Shown here piece by piece: positions 6,538-54,864 of a stretch of DNA of 64,000 nt (its first letter is position 1; each line of letters begins with the position of its first letter). The DNA lies in the NCBI RefSeq assembly GCF_001263335.1, contig NZ_LGVW01000024.1, forward strand, positions 1 to 64,000, read 5' to 3'. Source of the stretch: Dichelobacter nodosus (GTDB lineage Bacteria > Pseudomonadota > Gammaproteobacteria > Cardiobacteriales > Cardiobacteriaceae). The translations under genes were made by a program, and so were the position numbers. Under the pieces are notes generated by a model. The model ran no database searches and was not told the origin of the DNA. It saw nothing but the letters and a program-made list of their open reading frames with translations.

Positions 6538-7182
6538 TTAAAATCCCAATGATTGCAGGCGTTCGAGCGTCAGCGTTCCGGTTTCAGAATCCGTACTTTT
6601 GAGCAAACGCTCCAAATAACGCGCGAGCAAATCCACTTCAATATGAACCGCTTGCCCGATGTGATAATCATCGATAATCGTGTTTTTTTGCGTGTGCGGC
6701 ACAATCATCACGCTAAACTGATCGCCTTGGATATCGTTGATGGTCAAACTCACGCCGTCAACCGTAATGGAACCTTTACGGGCAATATATTTGGTCAGCG
6801 CCGTGGGAACGGAAAACTGTAAACGTTGGCTGCGTCCTTCGGTAACGCGTTCTTTTAATACGGCAATGCCATCTACGTGACCGCTGACTAAATGTCCGCC
6901 CAATTGAGTGTTGAGCGTTGCTGCGGGCTCTAAATTAACGCGCGTATCGACGCGCCAACGCGCAATCGTGGTTAAACGCAACGTTTCTGCGGAAACGTCC
7001 ACCCGAAATCCTTTTGAAATAAAATCGATCACGGTTAAACAAACGCCGTTAACTGCAATGCTATCGCCGAGATGACTATGACTTAAATCAAATTGTTCAG
7101 CGCAAATCTCTAAAGAAAGATCATTGCCGTGCGCCGCGATGGCAGTAATCGTGCCGACGGATTGGATAATTCCCGTAAACAT
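6538..7182 (-). CDS. ribE: Riboflavin synthase alpha chain
   Basis: The 214-residue protein shows the internal duplication of riboflavin synthase. Each half starts with a lumazine-binding repeat: MFTGIIQSVGTI at the N-terminus, and GHLVSGHVDGIAVL near residue 95. DSIAVNGVCLTV in the first half is matched by GSITVDGVSLTI in the second. It dismutates two lumazine molecules to riboflavin plus the ribitylamino-uracil substrate. It sits between ribD and ribBA with gaps of 12-14 bases, clearly in one operon. This gene is called ribC in older E. coli naming. Confidence 0.97.
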   Translation of the reverse strand: MFTGIIQSVGTITAIAAHGNDLSLEICAEQFDLSHSHLGDSIAVNGVCLTVIDFISKGFRVDVSAETLRLTTIARWRVDTRVNLEPAATLNTQLGGHLVSGHVDGIAVLKERVTEGRSQRLQFSVPTALTKYIARKGSITVDGVSLTINDIQGDQFSVMIVPHTQKNTIIDDYHIGQAVHIEVDLLARYLERLLKSTDSETGTLTLERLQSLGF

Positions 7183-7196
7183 ATGTTTTTCCTGAT

Positions 7197-8303
7197 TTAA
7201 GGGTTAACGAGCAAACTCAATCGCCAATCGTCGCCGATGAGATGCGCGTCAGCAATTGAGAAGCGCATTCTATCAGATAAGTGCGCAAGCGGCGGCAGCG
7301 CAACCAGTGGACGCGCCGAATCACCCAAAAAAGTTGGCGCTAAATACAATAAAATTTCATCAACTAATTGCTCGGTTAAAAAAGCGCCGGCAAGTTGCAT
7401 GCCTGCTTCCACAAAAAGATGATTGATTTGCCGACGCCCCAATTCATCAAGCAATGCAGAAAGCGGCACTTTTCCCTGTTCGGTTGCCGGCAGCGATAAA
7501 TATTCCACCATTTGGGGGAAAGATTGCGGCGGTGGTTGAGTTGTCACCATTAAAATAGGCGACGGATCGCAAAACAACGCAGCATTTGCCGGTGTTTTTA
7601 ATTGACTATCGATCACCACGCGCAGCGGCGGATTTGCCGGCAGATCCGTTGGAAAACGCGCCGTTAAACGCGCATTATCGCCAATAACGCTCCCCGTTCC
7701 CGCGAGCACCGCATCAGCGGCAAGACGATGAAAATGTACATCTTTTCTTGCTAATTCGCCCGTAATCCACTGACTTTCGCCGTTTGCCAGCGCCGTGCGT
7801 CCGTCCATACTGGCAGCAATTTTTAAGGTAACCCAAGGTCGTCCCCAACGCATGCGGTGAAAAAAAGGGCGATTTAATTGCAATGCTTCTTGCGCACAAA
7901 TACCTTGTTCAACGCTTATTCCTGCCGCTCGTAATGCCGCAATTCCTTTGCCAGCAACCAAAGGATTGGGATCGGAACAGGCAATAACTACGCGTTTGAC
8001 GCCGGCGGCAATTAAAGCGTGGGTGCACGGCGGCGTGCGTCCAAAATGAGCACAAGGTTCTAAAGTAACGTAAACGGTGGCATCGCGCGCTTGCGTTCCC
8101 GCAGCATTTAACGCATTAATTTCCGCGTGCGCTTCGCCGGCGCGTTGATGCCAGCCTTCGCCGATAATCGTATGATTTTTAACGATAACACAGCCAACGC
8201 GCGGATTGGGTGCCGCAGAAAAAATACTGTTACGCGCCAGTTCCAAAGCGCGGTGCATATAAAAGAGATCGGAATCAGGAGGATTGTTCGTCGGCGAGTT
8301 CAT
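7197..8303 (-). CDS. ribD: Bifunctional riboflavin biosynthesis deaminase/reductase RibD
   Basis: The 368-residue enzyme deaminates and then reduces the pyrimidine intermediate after GTP ring opening. The deaminase domain has the zinc site HAEINAL with PCAHFGRTPPCTHALI (about residues 60-100). The C-terminal reductase domain starts near ASMDGRTALANGESQWI and contains VEAGMQLAGAFL. The first ATG gives a 29-base overlap with nrdR; an internal ATG at 8258 (MHRALELARNS) would remove it and is a reasonable alternative start. Confidence 0.95.
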   Translation of the reverse strand: MNSPTNNPPDSDLFYMHRALELARNSIFSAAPNPRVGCVIVKNHTIIGEGWHQRAGEAHAEINALNAAGTQARDATVYVTLEPCAHFGRTPPCTHALIAAGVKRVVIACSDPNPLVAGKGIAALRAAGISVEQGICAQEALQLNRPFFHRMRWGRPWVTLKIAASMDGRTALANGESQWITGELARKDVHFHRLAADAVLAGTGSVIGDNARLTARFPTDLPANPPLRVVIDSQLKTPANAALFCDPSPILMVTTQPPPQSFPQMVEYLSLPATEQGKVPLSALLDELGRRQINHLFVEAGMQLAGAFLTEQLVDEILLYLAPTFLGDSARPLVALPPLAHLSDRMRFSIADAHLIGDDWRLSLLVNP

Positions 8304-21673: not shown

Positions 21674-22597
21674 TTATCCAGCAATGAATTGCACGCCTTG
21701 CATATCAATCGTGATTTTTTGATGATCGGCGGGCAACGTTTTAGCAAAACTGATAATACAATCGCCTAAACCGCTGCCGCTGATTTTGCTTGCCAAAGTA
21801 TCGGGGTGAGCGCGCGCGGCGGCAATCATTGCGGCAAGCGTATCATCACAAACGCCCAATTCTTCCATATGCTGCTGATAATGCGCGAGTGCGGCATAAA
21901 AATCTTGCCAATGATGATGTTCGGCGGCGGCGATTGCGTGCGCGGCAGTTTCTCCCATCGTTTGATAGAGTTGCGCGTAAAAATCCGGCGAGCCGCGCAT
22001 TTTTTCAGCGATTTGATATAAAACGACATCGGTCGGCGTTTTATAACCGCTGTAACGTAATCCAACATCAACCGGCGGCAACGGCAGCGCCGAAACGCTT
22101 ACTTCCGGTAAATTGCGGTAAGCAATCATGCCGCCCCATAAACTCGCCGCTAAATCCGCGCCACTACCGCGGCTTTGCAAACTGCGCACAATGGTCAATG
22201 CTTGCGTGTGCAGCGTTTCGCGGCGTTCGTCTTCACCGGTATGCCGCGCTAAAGCGGCTAATGTGGCAACAGTAACCGCAGCTGAGCTGCCCAAACCTAA
22301 AGTTGGATCAATGGCGCTGTCGATTTCTAAAGTTAGCCCGCCGCTGTGCGGATAGCGCTCCAAACACGCGATCACAAACGCCAGCGGTCGATAAGGTTTT
22401 AAAAATCCTGCCGTACTTTCATAATCGCCAAGCGCGCTGTGAATGGTGATTTTGTCGTCATTGCGTGGCGTTAAACGCACGCGAATCCGTTGCGCGATGG
22501 CGGCAACAATGGCGGGTTGTCCGTAAACAACGGCGTGTTCACCGCAAATCATCACGGAACCAGAAGCAGAAGTTTCAATTGTCATGGGCGTACTCAT
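21674..22597 (-). CDS. mvk: Mevalonate kinase
   Basis: The 307-residue GHMP kinase phosphorylates mevalonate, an early step of the mevalonate route to isoprenoids. Motifs are GEHAVVYGQPAIVAA near the start, the phosphate loop GLGSSAAVTVA near residue 95, and the C-terminal KISGSGLGDCIISF. These fit mevalonate kinase better than homoserine or galactokinase. The start is uncertain: this ATG, one at 22585, or a GTG at 22648 inside a hairpin. It follows pyrB by 63 bases on the same strand. Few gammaproteobacteria use this pathway. Confidence 0.88.
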   Translation of the reverse strand: MSTPMTIETSASGSVMICGEHAVVYGQPAIVAAIAQRIRVRLTPRNDDKITIHSALGDYESTAGFLKPYRPLAFVIACLERYPHSGGLTLEIDSAIDPTLGLGSSAAVTVATLAALARHTGEDERRETLHTQALTIVRSLQSRGSGADLAASLWGGMIAYRNLPEVSVSALPLPPVDVGLRYSGYKTPTDVVLYQIAEKMRGSPDFYAQLYQTMGETAAHAIAAAEHHHWQDFYAALAHYQQHMEELGVCDDTLAAMIAAARAHPDTLASKISGSGLGDCIISFAKTLPADHQKITIDMQGVQFIAG

Positions 22598-37774: not shown

Positions 37775-39181
37775 ATGATGACGGAACCGGCAACTCAACA
37801 ACCATCGCGCTATTTACCTTGTTTACTCACGCTTGCCATTTTCATGCAAATGCTCGATACCACGATTTTAAACACGGCATTGCCCAGCATCGCGCGCAGT
37901 TTGCATGAATCGCCTTTAAGTATGCAATCTGCCATTGTTGCGTACGCTTTGACGGTGGCATTACTAATGCCGCTGTCGGGGTATTTATGCGATCGTTATG
38001 GAACGCGGAAAGTTTTTGCCAATGCAATGTTGTTATTTGTTGTCGGTTCGGTGTTATGCGCGGCGGCACCGAGTTTAACTTTTTTAGTTTTAGGACGCAT
38101 GATTCAAGGCATGGGCGGAGCGATGTTATCGCCGGTGCCGCGCGTGGTTGTGATGCGTGCTTATCCGCGAAATCAAATCGTTTCCATGCTGAATTTAATC
38201 GTCATGCCGGCATTAATTGGTCCCATTATTGGCCCACTTTTAGGCGGTTATTTAGTGGAATACGCGCATTGGAGTTGGATTTTTTTAATTAATCTACCGA
38301 TTGGTATTTTGGCAATTTTAGCCACGCATCGCGTGATGCCGGATTTTACGGGTGCGGCAAATCCGCGTTTGGATATTGTGGGATTTTTACTGTTTGCCGG
38401 CGGCGCTTTGGGTATTAGTTTGGCAATGGAAACCGTTTTGCACCCCGCCGGAAAATTGTTTTCATCATTAACCGCTTTATTGGGTATCGTGTCTTTTTAC
38501 GGATATTGGCATTACGCGCGCGGCAATCCCGATGCGCTTTATGCGGCAAATTTATTTAAAGTGCGCACTTACCGCGTGGGACTTTCCGGCAATTTAGTGA
38601 GCCGTTTGGGCATGAGTTCGGTGCCGTTTTTGTTACCTTTATTATTGCAAGTGGTTTTTGGTTACAGCGCGAGCGCCGCCGGCTGGATGCTGATGCCGAT
38701 CGCTTTTGCCGCAATGTTTGGCAAAATGGTGACGCTGCCTTTAATCAGCTATTTTGGTTATCGTCGTCTATTAATCATTAACACGCGATTAATCGGCATA
38801 TTAATCATGAGTTTAGCGTTGCCGCAGCCGCACACCTCGCCGTGGTTGTTAATGCCTTTACTCGCTGGCATCGGATTGAGCAATTCCGTGCAATTTACCT
38901 CTATGAATACGATTTCACTGGCGGATTTACGTATTTATCAAACCGGCAGCGGCAATAGTTTGCTTGCCGTTGATCAACAGCTTTCCATCAGTATGGGGAT
39001 TACGTTAGGCGCCGCGGTATTAACAGGATTTCGCAGCAGCCAATGGATCGGGGACGATTTACATCTCGCTTTTCGTTTAACTTTTATCGTCATCGGCTGC
39101 ATCACGTTTACTTCAAGCTGGGTTTTTGCGCGTCTTCACCCGTATGACGGGCAGAACTTGTTACCGTCTGAAAAGGATTAA
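37775..39181 (+). CDS. MFS drug exporter, DHA2 family (MdtD-like)
   Basis: The 468-residue membrane protein has the DHA2/EmrB start MLDTTILNTALPSIA, motif A GYLCDRYGTRKVF and motif C-like GPIIGPLLGGYLVE, with roughly 14 hydrophobic segments. It resembles E. coli MdtD (471). Substrates are unknown; proton-coupled export is inferred from the family. Its tail overlaps the convergent mvaD gene by 74 bases. Two adjacent ATGs open it. Confidence 0.87.
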   Translation: MMTEPATQQPSRYLPCLLTLAIFMQMLDTTILNTALPSIARSLHESPLSMQSAIVAYALTVALLMPLSGYLCDRYGTRKVFANAMLLFVVGSVLCAAAPSLTFLVLGRMIQGMGGAMLSPVPRVVVMRAYPRNQIVSMLNLIVMPALIGPIIGPLLGGYLVEYAHWSWIFLINLPIGILAILATHRVMPDFTGAANPRLDIVGFLLFAGGALGISLAMETVLHPAGKLFSSLTALLGIVSFYGYWHYARGNPDALYAANLFKVRTYRVGLSGNLVSRLGMSSVPFLLPLLLQVVFGYSASAAGWMLMPIAFAAMFGKMVTLPLISYFGYRRLLIINTRLIGILIMSLALPQPHTSPWLLMPLLAGIGLSNSVQFTSMNTISLADLRIYQTGSGNSLLAVDQQLSISMGITLGAAVLTGFRSSQWIGDDLHLAFRLTFIVIGCITFTSSWVFARLHPYDGQNLLPSEKD

Positions 39182-40094
39182 TGAGTTGCGCCTGCGGAAA
39201 CATTGAGGCAATTTCCGCTTCATCTTGCGCGCGGTATAACAATTTCACATTGGCGCCGGCATCGAGCGTGGCATAGACGGCGAGCCCTTCCGCGCGCGCC
39301 TGCCAAATGCATTGCAGCATTGCCAGCGTTTGCGGTTGCCAATAAAAAATCGCCGGACGCGCCGCCAGTAAACTGGCGTGCATCATCAACGCATTAGCTT
39401 CCGCGGTTTGGGCAAGCGTTAAAAAATCCCGATCAAGAACGGCTTGATAAATCACTTTTAAATCCGCTTCCGCAGCCTGCGTCCAACTTGAAAATAATGG
39501 ACTGCTCGCCGCGGTATGATTCATAGCTTGCCGCGAAGAGATTTTTTTCGCCGCCGCGTCAATCGTAATAATGCCGAGGCGCAAATCTTGCCAATCGCTG
39601 GCAATCGGACGGGCATAACAATCGCTGCCGTCAGCTTTTTCCCCTTTTTGCCAATAAACAAAACCCTGCCATAACGACCGGCAAGCGCTGCCGCTGCCGC
39701 GGCGCGCGATTTGTGATAATTGTTCCCGTGATAATGACCACTGAAAAAAATCATTTAATGCCAACGTTAACGCGGCAAAACCCGAAGCGCTGGACGCTAA
39801 ACCAGCAGCGGTGGGGATATTATTTTGGGTATGAATGACGAGCGGCGGGCGTTTGGGTTGGCAAAAATCAATAAAATGCCACACTTTTTGCACAAAAGCC
39901 GTATCCGGCGGCAGCAAGCGATGATCGCAATACAATTGATCGCGTTCGCCGGCGCTGATGGTTGTTGTTGTGCCTAAATGAGCCAGCGAAATCGATAAAC
40001 TGCCGTTAGTTGGCAAATTAAGCTGCGCATCGCGTTTGCCCCAATATTTTGCCAGCGCAATATTGGCTGGCGCAAAAGCGGTTGCCGAATGCAT
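39108..40094 (-). CDS. mvaD: Diphosphomevalonate decarboxylase
   Basis: The 328-residue GHMP enzyme decarboxylates mevalonate 5-diphosphate to isopentenyl diphosphate. Signatures are FAPANIALAKYWGKRD at the start, LPTNGSLSISL, the phosphate loop PTAAGLASSASGFAAL near residue 95, RRGSGSACRS and the late DAGANVKLLY. It is the last gene of the minus-strand run from hemB, 8 bases after fumC. Together with mevalonate kinase in this window it shows that the genome uses the mevalonate route. Its tail overlaps the MFS gene. Confidence 0.95.
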   Translation of the reverse strand: MHSATAFAPANIALAKYWGKRDAQLNLPTNGSLSISLAHLGTTTTISAGERDQLYCDHRLLPPDTAFVQKVWHFIDFCQPKRPPLVIHTQNNIPTAAGLASSASGFAALTLALNDFFQWSLSREQLSQIARRGSGSACRSLWQGFVYWQKGEKADGSDCYARPIASDWQDLRLGIITIDAAAKKISSRQAMNHTAASSPLFSSWTQAAEADLKVIYQAVLDRDFLTLAQTAEANALMMHASLLAARPAIFYWQPQTLAMLQCIWQARAEGLAVYATLDAGANVKLLYRAQDEAEIASMFPQAQLINPFQTVTSSARHTGEDAQKPSLK

Positions 40095-47479: not shown

Positions 47480-48586
47480 ATGAAAATAGACATGACTGAA
47501 AAAATAAATCTTTTTGACTATACCCCCAAAGCTTTGGCGGATTGGTTTGTGGCGCAGGGAGAGCAACCGTTTCGCGCGAAACAAGTTTTAAAATGGCTTT
47601 ATCACGAACGCGTTTATGATTTTGAACGCATGACGGATTTAAGCAAAAAACTGCGCGCGATGCTTTCGGAAAAAGCATGCGTGATTTTGCCGCAAGTGAT
47701 TGCCGATAAAACCGCGCGCGATGGAACGCGAAAATGGGTATTTCAGTATGCGTGCACAAATAGCATTGAAGCGGTTTTTATTCCTGAAGATGATCGCGGT
47801 ACTTTATGCATTTCTTCGCAAGCAGGTTGCGCGTTGGCGTGTCCTTTTTGTTCTACGGCGCGGGCGGGATTTAATCGTAATTTAACCACCGGCGAGATTG
47901 TGGTGCAGGTTTGGCTGGCTAAAGAACTGGTTCATTGTGAACGCAACGGTAATAGTCGTTTAATAACGAACGTTGTTTTAATGGGAATGGGCGAGCCGCT
48001 GATTAATTTTAATCAGGTTTTGCCTGCCACCGAAATTTTTATGAGCGATTGGGGATTTGGTCTATCAAAACGGCGCGTAACGTTGAGCACGTCGGGCGTG
48101 GTGCCGGCGATCCATAAATTGCGTGAGGTCACCGATTTGAGTTTAGCCGTTTCATTGCACGCGCCAAATGATGAATTGCGCAATAAAATTGTGCCGATTA
48201 ATCAGCGTTATGGTTTAAAAGCGCTGATTGAGGCGTGTGCTTTGTATGCAGAAAATAATAAGCAACACGGCGGCATTACGTGGGAATATGTGATGCTAAA
48301 AGGCGTTAACGATACGCTCGAGCACGCCCAACAATTAGCGGATTTATTGCGTAATGTGCCCGGAAAAATTAATTTAATTCCTTTTAATGAGTTTCCCAAT
48401 AGTCCTTTCCAATGTTCATCTTGGGAAGATATTGTGCGTTTTCAACAGTTTTTACAAAAAGCCGGTTATATTGCCACCATTCGCAAAACCCGAGGCGACG
48501 ATATCGATGCGGCGTGTGGACAATTAGTGGGGCGCGTCAACGATCGAATTCGACGCGAGCGGCAGTTTCAAGGATTTAAAGCATGA
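47480..48586 (+). CDS. rlmN: Dual-specificity RNA methyltransferase RlmN
   Basis: The 368-residue radical-SAM enzyme makes 2-methyladenosine at 23S rRNA A2503 and at tRNA A37. The cluster motif CALACPFC is near residue 117-124, with GMGEPLINF near 173, VSLHAPND and the late cysteine region RGDDIDAACGQL. The length is usual. The start is uncertain between this ATG and one four codons on (47492); neither has a strong Shine-Dalgarno. It opens the rlmN-pilF-rodZ-hisS-yfgM-bamB-der cluster. Confidence 0.96.
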   Translation: MKIDMTEKINLFDYTPKALADWFVAQGEQPFRAKQVLKWLYHERVYDFERMTDLSKKLRAMLSEKACVILPQVIADKTARDGTRKWVFQYACTNSIEAVFIPEDDRGTLCISSQAGCALACPFCSTARAGFNRNLTTGEIVVQVWLAKELVHCERNGNSRLITNVVLMGMGEPLINFNQVLPATEIFMSDWGFGLSKRRVTLSTSGVVPAIHKLREVTDLSLAVSLHAPNDELRNKIVPINQRYGLKALIEACALYAENNKQHGGITWEYVMLKGVNDTLEHAQQLADLLRNVPGKINLIPFNEFPNSPFQCSSWEDIVRFQQFLQKAGYIATIRKTRGDDIDAACGQLVGRVNDRIRRERQFQGFKA

Positions 48587-48678
48587 ATATGAACCGCTGC
48601 GATGTAACCGATCGGCAAACGATTTCCCATCGCAATCATTTAATTATGGCAAAGCATGAATCAGCAAGGATTTTTTAA
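48583..48678 (+). CDS. Possible 31-residue ORF joining rlmN and pilF
   Basis: The ATG overlaps the rlmN stop (ATGA) and the TAA shares its last base with the pilF ATG (TAATG), so the frame fills the gap exactly. The product (MNMNRCDVTDRQ at its start) shows no motif. It may be a coupling ORF that carries ribosomes into pilF, or an accident; a stretch this short stays open by chance fairly often. Confidence 0.3.
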   Translation: MNMNRCDVTDRQTISHRNHLIMAKHESARIF

Positions 48679-49439
48679 TGAAAAACAATCATTTTTTAGG
48701 CGGCGTTGCCGTTGTGTGTTTGATTGTATCGGGCTGCGTGTCGACGACGCAATCAACGCCAAATGTTGAACCGGTAAAACCAGATTTTAATAAGGCTTAT
48801 CAAGATTATTTGCAATTAGGCGCTCATTACGTCAGTTTGGGACGTTATGATTTAGCCGAACCCAAATTAAAGCGCGCCATTGAAATTGATTCCGAGCCGC
48901 CGGAAGCGTGGAACGTTTTGGCAGTGCTGTATGAAGAAAAACGCGATATTGCCGCGGGCAATCAGGTTTATCAAAAATTAATCGCCTCGCACCCTGATTA
49001 TCCTTTGGGCTTTATGAATTACGCGACATTTTTATGTAAATTTGACCGCGACGCCGATCGGCAAAATTTATACGACAAAATGCGGCGCAAAGGGCGTGAA
49101 TTCGTGCCGTTGTCTTATATTGCCGCCGGTGATTGCGAGCGGAAGCGTCAACAAGATGCCGCGGCACAAGCGCAATATCGTCAAGCATTAGTTTTTGATA
49201 ATAAAGCTGCCGGCGCATTGTTGCCTTTATCCGAATTAGCCGTTGCGCAACATGATTACGCCACCGCTTTAGGTTATTTAAAAGTCATGCATACCTATAT
49301 TGGCTATAGTCCTGAAAGCGTTCGATTAGCTATTTTGGCAGCACGGGGCACAAATGATCGGGTGTTAGAAGAAGAAATGATGCGTATCATGCGCGGTAAT
49401 TATGGCGATACACCTCAAGCAAAATCTTTAGGAATATAA
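48678..49439 (+). CDS. pilF: Type IV pilus biogenesis lipoprotein PilF/PilW
   Basis: The 253-residue protein has a lipobox VSGC (cysteine near 20) and tandem TPR helices (YVSLGRYDLAEPKLKRAIEID, AWNVLAVLYEEKRDIAAGNQVY and more). PilF is the outer-membrane pilotin that places the PilQ secretin; in its absence pili fail. In Pseudomonas it lies at the same place between rlmN and rodZ. Its presence implies type IV pili in this organism. The stop is one base before rodZ. Confidence 0.92.
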   Translation: MKNNHFLGGVAVVCLIVSGCVSTTQSTPNVEPVKPDFNKAYQDYLQLGAHYVSLGRYDLAEPKLKRAIEIDSEPPEAWNVLAVLYEEKRDIAAGNQVYQKLIASHPDYPLGFMNYATFLCKFDRDADRQNLYDKMRRKGREFVPLSYIAAGDCERKRQQDAAAQAQYRQALVFDNKAAGALLPLSELAVAQHDYATALGYLKVMHTYIGYSPESVRLAILAARGTNDRVLEEEMMRIMRGNYGDTPQAKSLGI

Positions 49440-49440
49440 G

Positions 49441-50421
49441 ATGACGGACATTAACGATAATAAAACCTCAATCGATGACACTATTGGCGATGCATTGCGC
49501 GCGGCGCGTGAAGAAAAACAATGGTCGATTACGGAAGCGGCGGATCAAACTAATTTAAATCCTACGATTATTCAATTGTTAGAAGCCAATGATTTCAAAA
49601 ATATTGGCGCTTTTGTCTTTACGCGCGGTTATTTAAACAGTTATGCGCGGGCGTTGGGCTTAAATGCTGATGAAATCGTGCAACTTTTTAACCGTCTTTA
49701 TCCGGATACCAGCCAGCCGCGTATCAGTAGCGCTAATGCGGCATCGCAAACGCGCTCTTTTAAACGCAACAATATTGCGGCGTGGTTGACGATTTTACCG
49801 ATTTTAATAGTTGCCGCGGCTTTAGCGGTGCAAATTATGAATCCCAATTCATGGTTGATTACGCAATTTAAAGCGACTTTTGCGCCGAATGCGAAAACAG
49901 CGCCGGCTACTGGTGAAAATTTAGTCGTGCAAATTGGCACAGAACCGCCGGAAACGGCAGCAAATACGGCATTACCGCCGCCAGAATTGCCGGAACTCAC
50001 TTCTTTAGAAACACCGGCGCCGCAACCCGAAGAAAATACGGCTTTAATTAATCCCACAACGCCGGAAACAACAACGACAGAGTCGCCCGCGGAGTCGTCC
50101 GCGCCAGAGCAAAATAACGCTTTAGCGCCGGAAAATGCATCAACAGCTCAACCAACGGCAACTGCCGACGCGTCGAAAACCATTCGTATTGAAATAACGG
50201 GCGAAAATTGGGTTGAAGTTCGCGACAGCAATCGCAAAATTTTGTATTCAAAAACATTTAAATCTGGTGAATCCATTGAATTGAGCGATGGACAAACTTA
50301 TACCGTTTCTTTGGGGCGTCCGCAATCAGCTAATTTAATGATTGCGGGGCAGCCGGCAGATTGGCAGAAATATCGCGTTGAAGGTAATCAACGGCGTTTT
50401 CGCATCGGAACGGCGCAATGA
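49441..50421 (+). CDS. rodZ: Cytoskeleton protein RodZ
   Basis: The 326-residue protein has an N-terminal HTH_25 domain (GDALRAAREEKQWSITEAAD, about residues 16-80), one membrane segment (WLTILPILIVAAALAVQ, about 116-132), a long proline/threonine/alanine-rich periplasmic linker and a beta-rich DUF4115 domain (GENWVEVRDSNRKILYSKTF). It links MreB to the envelope and helps set rod shape. The stop overlaps hisS by 4 bases; ispG, normally between them, is absent. Confidence 0.94.
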   Translation: MTDINDNKTSIDDTIGDALRAAREEKQWSITEAADQTNLNPTIIQLLEANDFKNIGAFVFTRGYLNSYARALGLNADEIVQLFNRLYPDTSQPRISSANAASQTRSFKRNNIAAWLTILPILIVAAALAVQIMNPNSWLITQFKATFAPNAKTAPATGENLVVQIGTEPPETAANTALPPPELPELTSLETPAPQPEENTALINPTTPETTTTESPAESSAPEQNNALAPENASTAQPTATADASKTIRIEITGENWVEVRDSNRKILYSKTFKSGESIELSDGQTYTVSLGRPQSANLMIAGQPADWQKYRVEGNQRRFRIGTAQ

Positions 50422-51698
50422 GTGAACACAATATTCAATCCATTCGCGGCATGCGCGATATTTTGCCGCCGGAATCTGATTTACGCGAACAATTGATGGA
50501 TAAAATCCATCACAAATTGCATCAATTTGGTTATTTGCCAGCGGATTTGCCTTTGTTAGAAAAAACGGCGCTTTTTCAACGCACGATCGGTTCGGAAACT
50601 GATGTTGTGACTAAGGAAATGTACACTTTTTTAGACCGCAGCGAAGAAAGCGTTACTTTGCGCCCAGAAGCAACGGCAGGCGCCGTGCGCGCGATTATTG
50701 AACAAGGGCGCGCGCAACAAGTGCAACGTTTATATGTTGAAGGGGCGATGTTTCGTTATGAACGTCCACAAAAAGGGCGTTATCGCCAATTCAGTCAGGT
50801 GAGCGTGGAATCGTTTGGCGTAAAAAGTGCCGCGCAAGATGTTGAATTAATTCAACTTGCTTATGAATTGTTTCAAGAATTGGGATTAATTTCTCTTGTT
50901 CGTTTGGAACTCAATACCATTGGTTTGCCAGAAGAACGGCAGCTTTTTCAAAAAGATTTAGTGGCTTATTTGCAAAATCATCGGCAGGAATTAGATGAAG
51001 ATTCGCAGCGGCGTTTGGAAACGAATCCGTTGCGGATTTTAGACAGCAAAGATCCGCAAGTTCAAGCCTGTTTGGACGCGGCGCCGGCGTTACTCGATTA
51101 TTTAGGCAGCGAAAGCCAGCAACATTTTGAACAGGTGACAACTTTATTAAATGCGCTGGATATTCCGTGGCGTTTAAATCCGCGTTTGGTGCGCGGTTTG
51201 GATTATTATTGCCATACCGTTTTTGAATGGACAACAGACGCTTTGGGCGCGCAAAGCGCGGTGTGCGCGGGAGGGCGTTATGATGGTTTGGTTGAACAAC
51301 TAGGCGGTGCGGCAACGCCTGCCGCAGGATTCGCTTTTGGCGTCGATCGGATTTTATTGTTGTTGGAACAAAATGCGATATGGCAGGCGCGCCGTCCGTT
51401 GATTTATATGGTTATTGCCAGTTTTGCCGAGCAAGCAATGGCAATGCAGTGGGCGGCGAAGCTGAGGCAGCAGTTTCCAGATGATGCCATCGTGTTGCAT
51501 AACGATTACCAAAGTTTGAAAAATCAGTTTAAAAAAGCGGATAAATCGGGGGCGGATTTTGTGCTCGTTTTTGGCGAACAAGAACGCGAAAATCAGCAAG
51601 TAAATTGCAAAGATCTTCAAAGCGGTGCGCAGCATTGTTTTGGTTTTGATGAACTAGTCGCTTATTTAACCGCGCAAAAGGATAAAAAATGTCAATAA
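50418..51698 (+). CDS. hisS: Histidyl-tRNA synthetase
   Basis: The 426-residue class II synthetase has motif 1 near the start (IRGMRDILPPES), motif 2 FRYERPQKGRYRQF near residue 113, the histidine motifs LVRGLDYYCHTVFEW near 257 and AGGRYDGLVEQLGG, then an anticodon-binding domain. The length matches E. coli (424). It overlaps rodZ upstream by 4 bases and yfgM downstream by 10. Confidence 0.97.
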   Translation: MSEHNIQSIRGMRDILPPESDLREQLMDKIHHKLHQFGYLPADLPLLEKTALFQRTIGSETDVVTKEMYTFLDRSEESVTLRPEATAGAVRAIIEQGRAQQVQRLYVEGAMFRYERPQKGRYRQFSQVSVESFGVKSAAQDVELIQLAYELFQELGLISLVRLELNTIGLPEERQLFQKDLVAYLQNHRQELDEDSQRRLETNPLRILDSKDPQVQACLDAAPALLDYLGSESQQHFEQVTTLLNALDIPWRLNPRLVRGLDYYCHTVFEWTTDALGAQSAVCAGGRYDGLVEQLGGAATPAAGFAFGVDRILLLLEQNAIWQARRPLIYMVIASFAEQAMAMQWAAKLRQQFPDDAIVLHNDYQSLKNQFKKADKSGADFVLVFGEQERENQQVNCKDLQSGAQHCFGFDELVAYLTAQKDKKCQ

Positions 51699-52363
51699 TC
51701 AATCATTTATTAAATATTCCGATCAATGATCGCAGCGAAGAAGAAACCGGGGAATTGGTTAAAGAATGGTTGCGGCGGCACGGTGTAGTGATCGTAACCG
51801 GCATTGTCATTGGTTTGGCAATGGTTGGCGGCATGGATTGGTGGAAAGTTCATCAACGCAGCCAACGGCAAGAGCAATCTTTTTTATTGTCGCAATTAAC
51901 GGAAGCGGTTGATAAAAAACAATTAACTGTTGCCGAAAAACATTATGCCGCGATGAGCCAGAATAGAAGCGTGCAACGCGATTTAGCCAATGTTTTGCTG
52001 GCGCGTTTGTATGTAGAAAACAAGCAATTTGATAAAGCCTATCCGTTATTGCAACAAGCGCAATCCTCCAGCGATGATTTATTGGCGCAAAATGCGCAGT
52101 GGGCGCTGGTTCAAGTGCAATTGCAGCAAAAAGATTACGATGCTGCCTTATCAACGCTTGATTTGTTAAAAAACAGCGCTTATGCAAAAATTGTTCCGCA
52201 AATTCAAGGTGATATCTATTTATTGCGTGATCAATTGGAACCTGCTTTAAAAGCTTATGAAGAAAGCATGAAACTGCAACCGTTGCCGTTAACGCAGCGG
52301 CGGATTAATGCTTTAAAAGCAAAAATGGCGTTAACAGCGCCGACAACGGAGAAAAATTCATGA
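51689..52363 (+). CDS. yfgM: YfgM-like periplasmic TPR protein (ancillary SecYEG factor)
   Basis: The 224-residue protein has a short cytoplasmic N-terminus (SEEETGELVKEWLRRHG), one membrane anchor (VVIVTGIVIGLAMVGGMDWW), then TPR helices in the periplasm. E. coli YfgM works with PpiD at the Sec translocon and was also tied to stress control. Its position between hisS and bamB is conserved. The bamB start overlaps its stop by 4 bases. Confidence 0.92.
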   Translation: MSIINHLLNIPINDRSEEETGELVKEWLRRHGVVIVTGIVIGLAMVGGMDWWKVHQRSQRQEQSFLLSQLTEAVDKKQLTVAEKHYAAMSQNRSVQRDLANVLLARLYVENKQFDKAYPLLQQAQSSSDDLLAQNAQWALVQVQLQQKDYDAALSTLDLLKNSAYAKIVPQIQGDIYLLRDQLEPALKAYEESMKLQPLPLTQRRINALKAKMALTAPTTEKNS

Positions 52364-53505
52364 GATTTTGGCTGCCGCTTTTTTGTTTTTGTTGTTTGAG
52401 CGGCTGTTCAAGTTGGTTTTATGGTCATTCCAATGAACCGAAACCGGTGCCGCTTCCGGAAATCGCATCTTCTGTTACTACGGATATTGTTTGGCAAAAA
52501 TCATTGGGCGCCGGTGGTGCAAAAGAACAGTATGTTTTAGTGCCCGATCATGTTGGCGATGATATTTTTGCCATCAGCGCCGACGGGCATTTTTATCGAT
52601 TGCGCGCGGAAAACGGCGAAGTAGTTTTTCATGTTGCTTTAAAAAATCGCATCAGTAGCGGCGTTACGGCAGCGGGCGGTGCGGTTTTTGTAGGCGCGGA
52701 AAACGGCGACATCATTGCTTTATCGCAAAGCGATGGGCAAATGTTGTGGCGAAAACCATTGGGCGCGATGACGCTGGTGCGTCCTGTTGTGAGCGATGGA
52801 TTGTTGCTAGCGGTGACAACGGATAGCACGGTTACGGCGCTGTCGCCAGAAGATGGCGATATTTTATGGCGTTACAGTACGCAAACGCCGATGATACAAA
52901 TGCGCGGTGATGCTTCAGTATTAGCGGGCGGCGGCGTTGTGATGATGGTTAACGATTTGGGTTATTTCACGGTGTTAGATGCTAAAACCGGTTTACCGTT
53001 AGCGCAAAATCGTGTCGCGATGGGACTTTCGGGGCATCGTATCGGTAATTTACTTGATCAAAATGCGCTACCAAAAGCCAATCGCCACATTTTATTTGGT
53101 AGCGTTTATCAAAATAAAATGTACGCGCTCAATTTGGAAACCGGCGCCGTGTTGTGGGAAAACAAAACGGTGCATAGTAATCAGGATTTTGCCATTAGCC
53201 CCAGTGATATTTATGTAACGACACCGCACGGCAGCATCGTTGCACTACGGCAAGGCGATGGTTCCATGATATGGAAAAATGAGCATTTGCGCGGACGCAA
53301 ACTTTCTCCGCCGCTGGCGATTCCCAAACGAGTGGCAGCGCTGGATTTTGAAGGTCATTTAATATGGCTCGATGCAGATTCCGGCGCGCTTATTGGGCAG
53401 AAAAAAATTGGAAAAGTGGGCAGTTTTGCGCCGCCTTTAGTATTGGATCAACTGCTGATTTGGCAGTTGCAAAATGGACAGTTGGTCGCTTTTCGACCGC
53501 AATAG
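52360..53505 (+). CDS. bamB: Outer-membrane assembly lipoprotein BamB
   Basis: The 381-residue protein has a lipobox LSGC (cysteine near 16) and an eight-bladed beta-propeller of PQQ-like repeats: RAENGEVVFHVAL, SQSDGQMLWRKPLG, SPEDGDILWRYST, NLETGAVLWENKTV and more. BamB assists BamA in inserting outer-membrane beta-barrels, such as the porins in this window. The length is close to E. coli (392). It lies 9 bases before der. Confidence 0.96.
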   Translation: MRFWLPLFCFCCLSGCSSWFYGHSNEPKPVPLPEIASSVTTDIVWQKSLGAGGAKEQYVLVPDHVGDDIFAISADGHFYRLRAENGEVVFHVALKNRISSGVTAAGGAVFVGAENGDIIALSQSDGQMLWRKPLGAMTLVRPVVSDGLLLAVTTDSTVTALSPEDGDILWRYSTQTPMIQMRGDASVLAGGGVVMMVNDLGYFTVLDAKTGLPLAQNRVAMGLSGHRIGNLLDQNALPKANRHILFGSVYQNKMYALNLETGAVLWENKTVHSNQDFAISPSDIYVTTPHGSIVALRQGDGSMIWKNEHLRGRKLSPPLAIPKRVAALDFEGHLIWLDADSGALIGQKKIGKVGSFAPPLVLDQLLIWQLQNGQLVAFRPQ

Positions 53506-53514
53506 GGAGTTCTT

Positions 53515-54864
53515 TTGATCGATCATCTCGCAACGGTTGCTTTAGTTGGGCGACCCAATGTTGGTAAATCTACTTTATTTAATACCTTAACCCGTTCCAG
53601 ACAAGCCATCGTCAGCAATAAAGCGGGACTGACGCGCGACCGCATTTATGCGCGCACGACTTTAGCCGGTGTTCCGTGCATGTTGATTGATACGGGCGGA
53701 ATGTTGAATACGGAAACGGCAGAAATTGATTTTCGCGTTGATGAACAAGCGCGCACAGCGATGGAAGAAGCTGATGTGATTGTTTTTGTTTTAGATGCGC
53801 GTGATGGTTTAACGCTTGATGATGAACAAATTGCCGCGGAATTGCGCCGCGTGACGAAACCAATCGTGTTGGCGGTTAATAAAATTGATGGCGTTGATCC
53901 TGATGTTGCCGTTGCAGATTTTTATCGTTTGGGCATGCAACCCGTGCTAACGATTGCTGCCGAACAGCGCCGCGGCATTAAGCAATTAGAAGATTTGATT
54001 GTTTCATTATTGCCGCCAGCGCCGATTGAAAACGCAAATGAAACCGCCGCGCAAGAATCTATCCATTTGGCAGTGCTCGGGCGCCCAAATGCGGGAAAAT
54101 CTACTTTATTGAATCGTTTATTGGGAGAAGAGCGTTTGGTTGCGAGCCCCGTTGCTGGCACAACGCGCGATGCGATTCGTATTCCTTACGTTGATAATGA
54201 AGGCGATGCTTTTACTTTGATCGATACTGCCGGCATTCGGCGCAAAGCGCGCGTTGACGATAAAATCGAAAAATTTTCCATCGTTAAAGCGCTGGAAGCA
54301 ATTGAACAAGCCAATGTGGTGATTTTGGTGCTCGATGCGCAAGCAGGCATTACTGATCAAGATGCGCATTTGCTCGGCGAGATTATCAAACGCGGGCGCG
54401 GGCTCGTGATTGCTGTTAATAAATGGGATCATTTAGACGGTGAAACGCGGGAAAAAATACAAGCACAGTTAGAACGTAAATTAAATTTCGTTGATTATGC
54501 AGAAATATTTTATATTTCCGCGTTGCACGGTAGCAATATCCGCGCGTTATTGCCGGCGGTTAAAACGGTTTATCGCAGCGTGATGATGGAGATTTCAACC
54601 AATCAATGGACGCAAGCTTTGGAACTGGCTTATCATCGCCATCAGCCGCCGTTGGTTAATGGACGCGCAATTAAGTTGCAATATGCGCATCAAGGCGGAA
54701 AAAATCCCCCGCATGTGATTATTCACGGCGCGCGCACGGATAACGTTCCTGCTTCGTATACGCAATATTTGAGTCGATTTTTTCGGCAATATTTTCATTT
54801 GCACGGCACGCCGATTCGTATTTCTTACCGCGATAAAGCCAATCCTTTTGATCCGGAAAAATAA
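53515..54864 (+). CDS. der: Ribosome-associated GTPase Der/EngA
   Basis: The 449-residue protein has two tandem G domains: G1 GRPNVGKSTL near residue 13 with DTGGM, and G1 [10 protein letters not shown] near 188 with DTAGI; a C-terminal KH-like domain follows. It is needed for 50S assembly. The start codon is TTG (MIDHLATVALVG): GGGAG lies 5 bases upstream, no ATG is nearby, and Der proteins start just before this point. A clear terminator ends the cluster. Confidence 0.96.
   Translation: MIDHLATVALVGRPNVGKSTLFNTLTRSRQAIVSNKAGLTRDRIYARTTLAGVPCMLIDTGGMLNTETAEIDFRVDEQARTAMEEADVIVFVLDARDGLTLDDEQIAAELRRVTKPIVLAVNKIDGVDPDVAVADFYRLGMQPVLTIAAEQRRGIKQLEDLIVSLLPPAPIENANETAAQESIHLAVLGRPNAGKSTLLNRLLGEERLVASPVAGTTRDAIRIPYVDNEGDAFTLIDTAGIRRKARVDDKIEKFSIVKALEAIEQANVVILVLDAQAGITDQDAHLLGEIIKRGRGLVIAVNKWDHLDGETREKIQAQLERKLNFVDYAEIFYISALHGSNIRALLPAVKTVYRSVMMEISTNQWTQALELAYHRHQPPLVNGRAIKLQYAHQGGKNPPHVIIHGARTDNVPASYTQYLSRFFRQYFHLHGTPIRISYRDKANPFDPEK

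Follow-up and report, generated by a model that had tools for sequence, protein, structure and literature searches.

Mevalonate genes are reported for Coxiella burnetii and Legionella pneumophila, together with an absence of MEP genes (PMC9803151), and Legionella is described as being without a canonical phosphomevalonate kinase (PMC13001223). A second point of reference is the gene run rlmN-pilF-rodZ-ispG-hisS-yfgM-bamB-der of Pseudomonas and Cellvibrio. Dichelobacter nodosus, the sheep-footrot bacterium, has the same genes in the same order, minus ispG. The stretch of D. nodosus DNA that was analyzed (64,000 nucleotides in full; here called the window) holds this run together with two mevalonate pathway genes. 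From these features, a sequence-only reading had proposed that ispG was cleanly deleted from between rodZ and hisS after the mevalonate route was gained, and that the closed slot therefore records a pathway replacement. A literature search found no paper linking mevalonate with D. nodosus, and mevalonate was not mentioned in the literature found under other Cardiobacteriaceae names.

Isoprenoid pathway genes in the Cardiobacteriales

A set of 32 Cardiobacteriales genomes was examined, 12 from the Cardiobacteriaceae and 20 from three other families (f2, f3 and f4). The test for MEP loss covered ispG, ispH, dxr, ispF and dxs. None of the 12 Cardiobacteriaceae genomes had ispG, ispH, dxr or ispF. 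By contrast, ispH and dxr were each detected in all 20 of the other genomes, and ispG and ispF in 19 of 20 each, with the two misses coming from fragmented draft genomes. The mevalonate genes showed the opposite distribution. HMG-CoA reductase (HMGR), type-2 IDI and diphosphomevalonate decarboxylase (MVD), the latter two scoring over cut-off, were detected in 12/12 Cardiobacteriaceae and 0/20 others, and HMG-CoA synthase (HMGS) was found in 11/12 versus 0/20, its single miss being a genome that is 72% complete. The MEP and mevalonate pathways are complementary over the order, which places the change on the Cardiobacteriaceae stem, and the replacement of MEP by mevalonate is real and family-wide in this family. 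The sequence-only reading had expected ispG, ispH, ispC-F and dxs to be missing from the full genome; in D. nodosus, ispG, ispH, dxr, ispF and true dxs were indeed without a match.

True dxs was not found in the Cardiobacteriaceae except in one genome (G006), where it lies at L157:2785-4437 on the minus strand and encodes 550 aa scoring 510 bits over the dxs equivalog cut-off of 466. The protein is 37-40% identical to DXS of the sister families and is without a loop of about 60 residues. This divergent dxs has a ferrochelatase-like gene as its neighbour. G006 has none of ispG, ispH, dxr and ispF, and the enzyme may serve thiamine or pyridoxal synthesis. A dxs-domain match in a 669-aa frame of D. 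nodosus was rejected as a true dxs; it passed the Pfam cut-off but was weak (25 bits). As this frame resembles weak matches in MEP-using relatives that also bear a true dxs, it most likely encodes a transketolase.

The D. nodosus genes for HMGR (PF00368, 8e-80), type-2 IDI (IPP isomerase; TIGR02151, 361 bits over 281), HMGS (TIGR01835, 454 bits over a cut-off of 360) and one kinase are grouped at about 41.5-46 kb of contig C34. Comparison of HMGR to the PDB returned six matches, all labelled HMG-CoA reductases (best E values 1.6e-62 to 1.9e-57), which we take to be class I, with none of class II; by its likeness to these structures, the D. nodosus enzyme is predicted to be of class I type. A second kinase and MVD are encoded by separate genes in the window, apart from the C34 group. 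The MVD gene (39108-40094, minus strand) had been correctly named from the window, as its product scored 280 bits over the TIGR01240 cut-off of 171, matched PF22700 and PF18376, and had MVDs as its best solved relatives. This gene and a convergent MFS transporter gene (37775-39181) share 74 bases at their 3' ends (39108-39181). In G012, all six mevalonate genes are contiguous (HMGR-idi2-HMGS-kinase-kinase-MVD), an order that we infer to be the ancestral arrangement.

The window kinase (21674-22597, minus strand) had been called a mevalonate kinase. Its family is upheld, and it is described here as a mevalonate-kinase-family GHMP kinase (MK or PMK), since it scored 143 bits to TIGR00549 (cut-off 163) and 69 bits to TIGR01220 (cut-off 166) and a second such kinase is present in the genome. 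The C34 kinase likewise scored below the cut-offs (163 and 166), with 137 bits to the mevalonate kinase model and 32 bits to the Gram-positive PMK model. Of the further mevalonate genes that had been expected elsewhere in the genome, HMGS and HMGR are present, and for phosphomevalonate kinase there are two MK/PMK-type candidates, both of which fall under the cut-offs. In an alignment of nine window-type kinases, the motifs SSAAV, SGAD and SGSGLGDC are shared and the APGK lysine is replaced by Ser in 9/9 sequences, whereas the C34-type kinase retains APGK together with an HGKGS.ID motif. When the window-type profile was compared to the PDB, an archaeal-type mevalonate kinase was the best match (4e-39), followed by Lin0012 (1e-29) and, weakly, phosphomevalonate kinase 1k47 (3e-8). 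One of the two D. nodosus kinases is probably the PMK, and by family models, PDB profile and motifs either is a candidate; the window kinase could be this enzyme.

The rodZ-hisS junction and the ispG slot

The gene run of the window lies on the plus strand and was found to be intact apart from the missing ispG, as originally described. It starts with rlmN (47480-48586), an ORF with tblastn matches in the same order in the sister families and other Gammaproteobacteria, followed by pilF/pilW (48678-49439; conserved in position, with a match of 1.9e-31 to TIGR02521 type_IV_pilW that is under the model cut-off), rodZ (49441-50421) and hisS (50418-51698). Downstream are yfgM (51689-52363; PF09976 TPR_21, 5e-30, and position) and, each assigned by position and tblastn conservation, bamB (52360-53505) and der (53515-54864). 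The closed slot consists of the 4-base overlap ATGA at 50418-50421, which is at once the stop of rodZ and the start of hisS, with no frame between the two genes. RodZ (326 aa) is complete, with an N-terminal HTH_25 domain (PF13413) and a full C-terminal RodZ_C domain (PF13464, residues 249-320); thus, nothing of rodZ has been lost. HisS (426 aa) is a clear equivalog (TIGR00442, 469 bits over a cut-off of 287). The ATGA overlap is likely ordinary tight operon packing, for which translational coupling is predicted.

The junction is also closed in the sister families that use the MEP pathway. In f3 (G013), the rodZ frame stops about 40 bases ahead of hisS; in f4, rodZ ends a few to about 60 bases ahead of hisS or overlaps it slightly; and in f2, the contig starts inside the rodZ C-terminus, which reaches to a few bases before hisS. 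In these families ispG is at other loci, next to pyrE (f2), after a 480-aa ORF (f3) and before trmB (f4), the gene names here being read by eye from the sequence. The separation is wide, with ispG and hisS 98 kb apart in G013 and at 807 kb and 263 kb, respectively, of C1 in G022. Since MEP-using sisters are closed at rodZ-hisS, the order's ancestor already had the closed junction at a time when it used the MEP pathway. The closure predates the mevalonate switch and records nothing about it.

For a wider view, 76 hisS loci outside the family were fetched by similarity to D. nodosus HisS, and 72 of these had enough upstream DNA. The gene ispG adjoined hisS in 8 of the 72 (Pseudomonas, Cellvibrio and three MAGs) and did not in the other 64, in a sample biased to HisS like that of D. 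nodosus; the 64 were scored for the local neighbourhood of hisS. Occupancy of the slot in Pseudomonas, as stated in the sequence-only reading, was verified at Pseudomonas and Cellvibrio loci (L092, L094, L095, L047 and L050). Unlike in these two genera, the slot is free of ispG in most of the loci examined and throughout the Cardiobacteriales. A tree of HisS, RlmN and Der (100 rows, FastTree, midpoint root, some long branches) recovered the Cardiobacteriaceae as a clade (99), f3 as its sister (98) and the Cardiobacteriales as a clade (99). On this tree, which is not rooted for gain versus loss, two changes of slot state are required, and both lie outside the Cardiobacteriales and away from the branches next to it. 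An ispG may have occupied the slot in the Cardiobacteriales lineage at some earlier time and been lost before the mevalonate gain.

An older displacement of this kind was considered in light of the IspG proteins themselves, of which 5/5 tested passed the IspG models. The slot-type IspG is 369-385 aa (complete proteins) and the sister-family IspG is 405-409 aa (427 by one annotated start). Short and long types share 32-40% identity, as against 58-89% among the sister-family proteins. The long type is unlinked in the Cardiobacteriales (L233, L234 and L237), and the short type occupies the slot in Pseudomonas and Cellvibrio (L092 and L047). An ancestor of the order may have swapped a short slot ispG for a long-type ispG at another locus, with the mevalonate switch later removing the long copy. 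The existence of two subtypes, the three different contexts of the long-type gene in f2, f3 and f4, and the short type in all slot-holding lineages favor this account. We nonetheless hold it tentatively, at somewhat under even odds, as the ancestors of Pseudomonas-like lineages may instead have gained ispG at the slot, on a tree not rooted for gain versus loss, and the subtype comparison covers slot-holders and sisters.

Far less credible is the original proposal that ispG stayed in the rodZ-hisS slot up to the mevalonate gain and was then cleanly deleted, which would make the junction a scar of the replacement. It draws on the ispG-filled slot of Pseudomonas and Cellvibrio and on the presence of mevalonate genes and absence of ispG in the Cardiobacteriaceae. 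However, all sister families examined use the MEP pathway with rodZ-hisS closed and ispG elsewhere, so that they would have had to close the junction independently; moreover, their IspG is of the other subtype, most of the wider hisS loci are free of ispG, and the tree has no slot change near the order. This reading is therefore very improbable. The comparison of close relatives thus separates the two parts of the proposal: the pathway replacement stands on the reciprocal gene distribution, whereas the slot as its record does not.

Removal of dxr from between cdsA and rseP

A deletion of the kind proposed was found at another conserved operon. This operon reads uppS-cdsA-dxr-rseP in f2 and f4; in f3, dxr precedes rseP with a different gene upstream. 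Compared to this sister-family arrangement, D. nodosus C34 keeps tsf-pyrH-frr-uppS-cdsA-rseP with dxr gone and with cdsA and rseP joined by an overlapping ATGA at C34:73007-73010 (region L283:3178-5417, equal to C34:72177-74416). The identities of D. nodosus CdsA and RseP were confirmed by Pfam. The family was searched with UppS, CdsA, RseP, IspA and LspA of G016 joined into one query, and cdsA was found to adjoin rseP in 10 of the 11 Cardiobacteriaceae genomes that hold both. The exception, G010, has unrelated ORFs between the two genes; these ORFs (L301:3348-4380) resemble an acyltransferase. The cdsA-rseP junction is a true deletion scar of the MEP pathway. Since MEP-using sisters keep dxr at this slot and the Cardiobacteriaceae are without it, the logic of the sequence-only reading was sound in principle, but it is this junction, and not rodZ-hisS, to which it applies.

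Other positions agree, though with less constant neighbours: ispA is followed by mutY and not by dxs, and lspA has no ispH after it. In G012, hisS (L230, about 6558-7798) and cdsA (L286) are each split between frames, perhaps by assembly errors. Draft incompleteness as the sole cause of the missing MEP genes was ruled out, for although the D. nodosus assembly is in 36 contigs (1,452,418 bp), its completeness is 100%, the four MEP markers are missing from 12/12 family genomes including the single-contig G002 and G006, and continuous sequence bridges the dxr position.

Proposed history and comparison with known systems

The best overall explanation, to which we assign a probability of about 0.93, is that a Cardiobacteriaceae ancestor gained the mevalonate set and lost the MEP pathway, with the rodZ-hisS closure unrelated and older. 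Two points are directly observed: the reciprocal pathway distribution over the order, and the fact that a conserved operon has cleanly lost dxr. The common ancestor of the family would have acquired the mevalonate genes, probably as one cluster of the order HMGR-idi2-HMGS-kinase-kinase-MVD and presumably by horizontal transfer, and the MEP pathway would have been lost in this same ancestor. None of the 32 Cardiobacteriales genomes held both pathways, so we infer the order of events, in which gain would have come before or alongside loss. With rodZ-hisS already closed when the order arose, and the long ispG encoded elsewhere in its lineages, ispG would have been lost from some locus other than rodZ-hisS. 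In the D. nodosus lineage, the cluster would later have split into HMGR-idi2-HMGS-kinase on C34 and the two separate genes of the window.

A more detailed joint reading adds that there was one family-wide switch via a six-gene cluster with a class I type HMGR, that MEP genes were excised cleanly with start-stop coupling rebuilt (as at cdsA-rseP), that the divergent dxs of one lineage is perhaps for vitamins only, and that the second kinase step is perhaps performed by an MK paralogue without the P-loop lysine. All of these parts together may hold, but we rate the combination as slightly more doubtful than not.

The preservation of both states in sister families makes gain, loss and scar separable at the family level. 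It also suggests that, when a gene is absent from a 'conserved' operon, the nearest relatives should be compared before a scar is called. The Cardiobacteriaceae include animal and human pathogens; MEP inhibitors such as fosmidomycin would be expected to find no target in them, and their HMG-CoA reductase should be of class I type.

The replacement resembles a type already known, of which the Cardiobacteriaceae are a further case. Similarly to Coxiella and Legionella, these are Gammaproteobacteria with mevalonate genes in place of MEP genes (PMC9803151), and, much as the PMK of Legionella is not canonical (PMC13001223), neither D. nodosus kinase passes the PMK cut-off. By contrast to Coxiella and Legionella, the Cardiobacteriaceae carry HMGS, type-2 IDI and a pair of MK-like kinases, and the whole family has switched while its sister families keep the MEP pathway; the likeness noted here is one of gene content.
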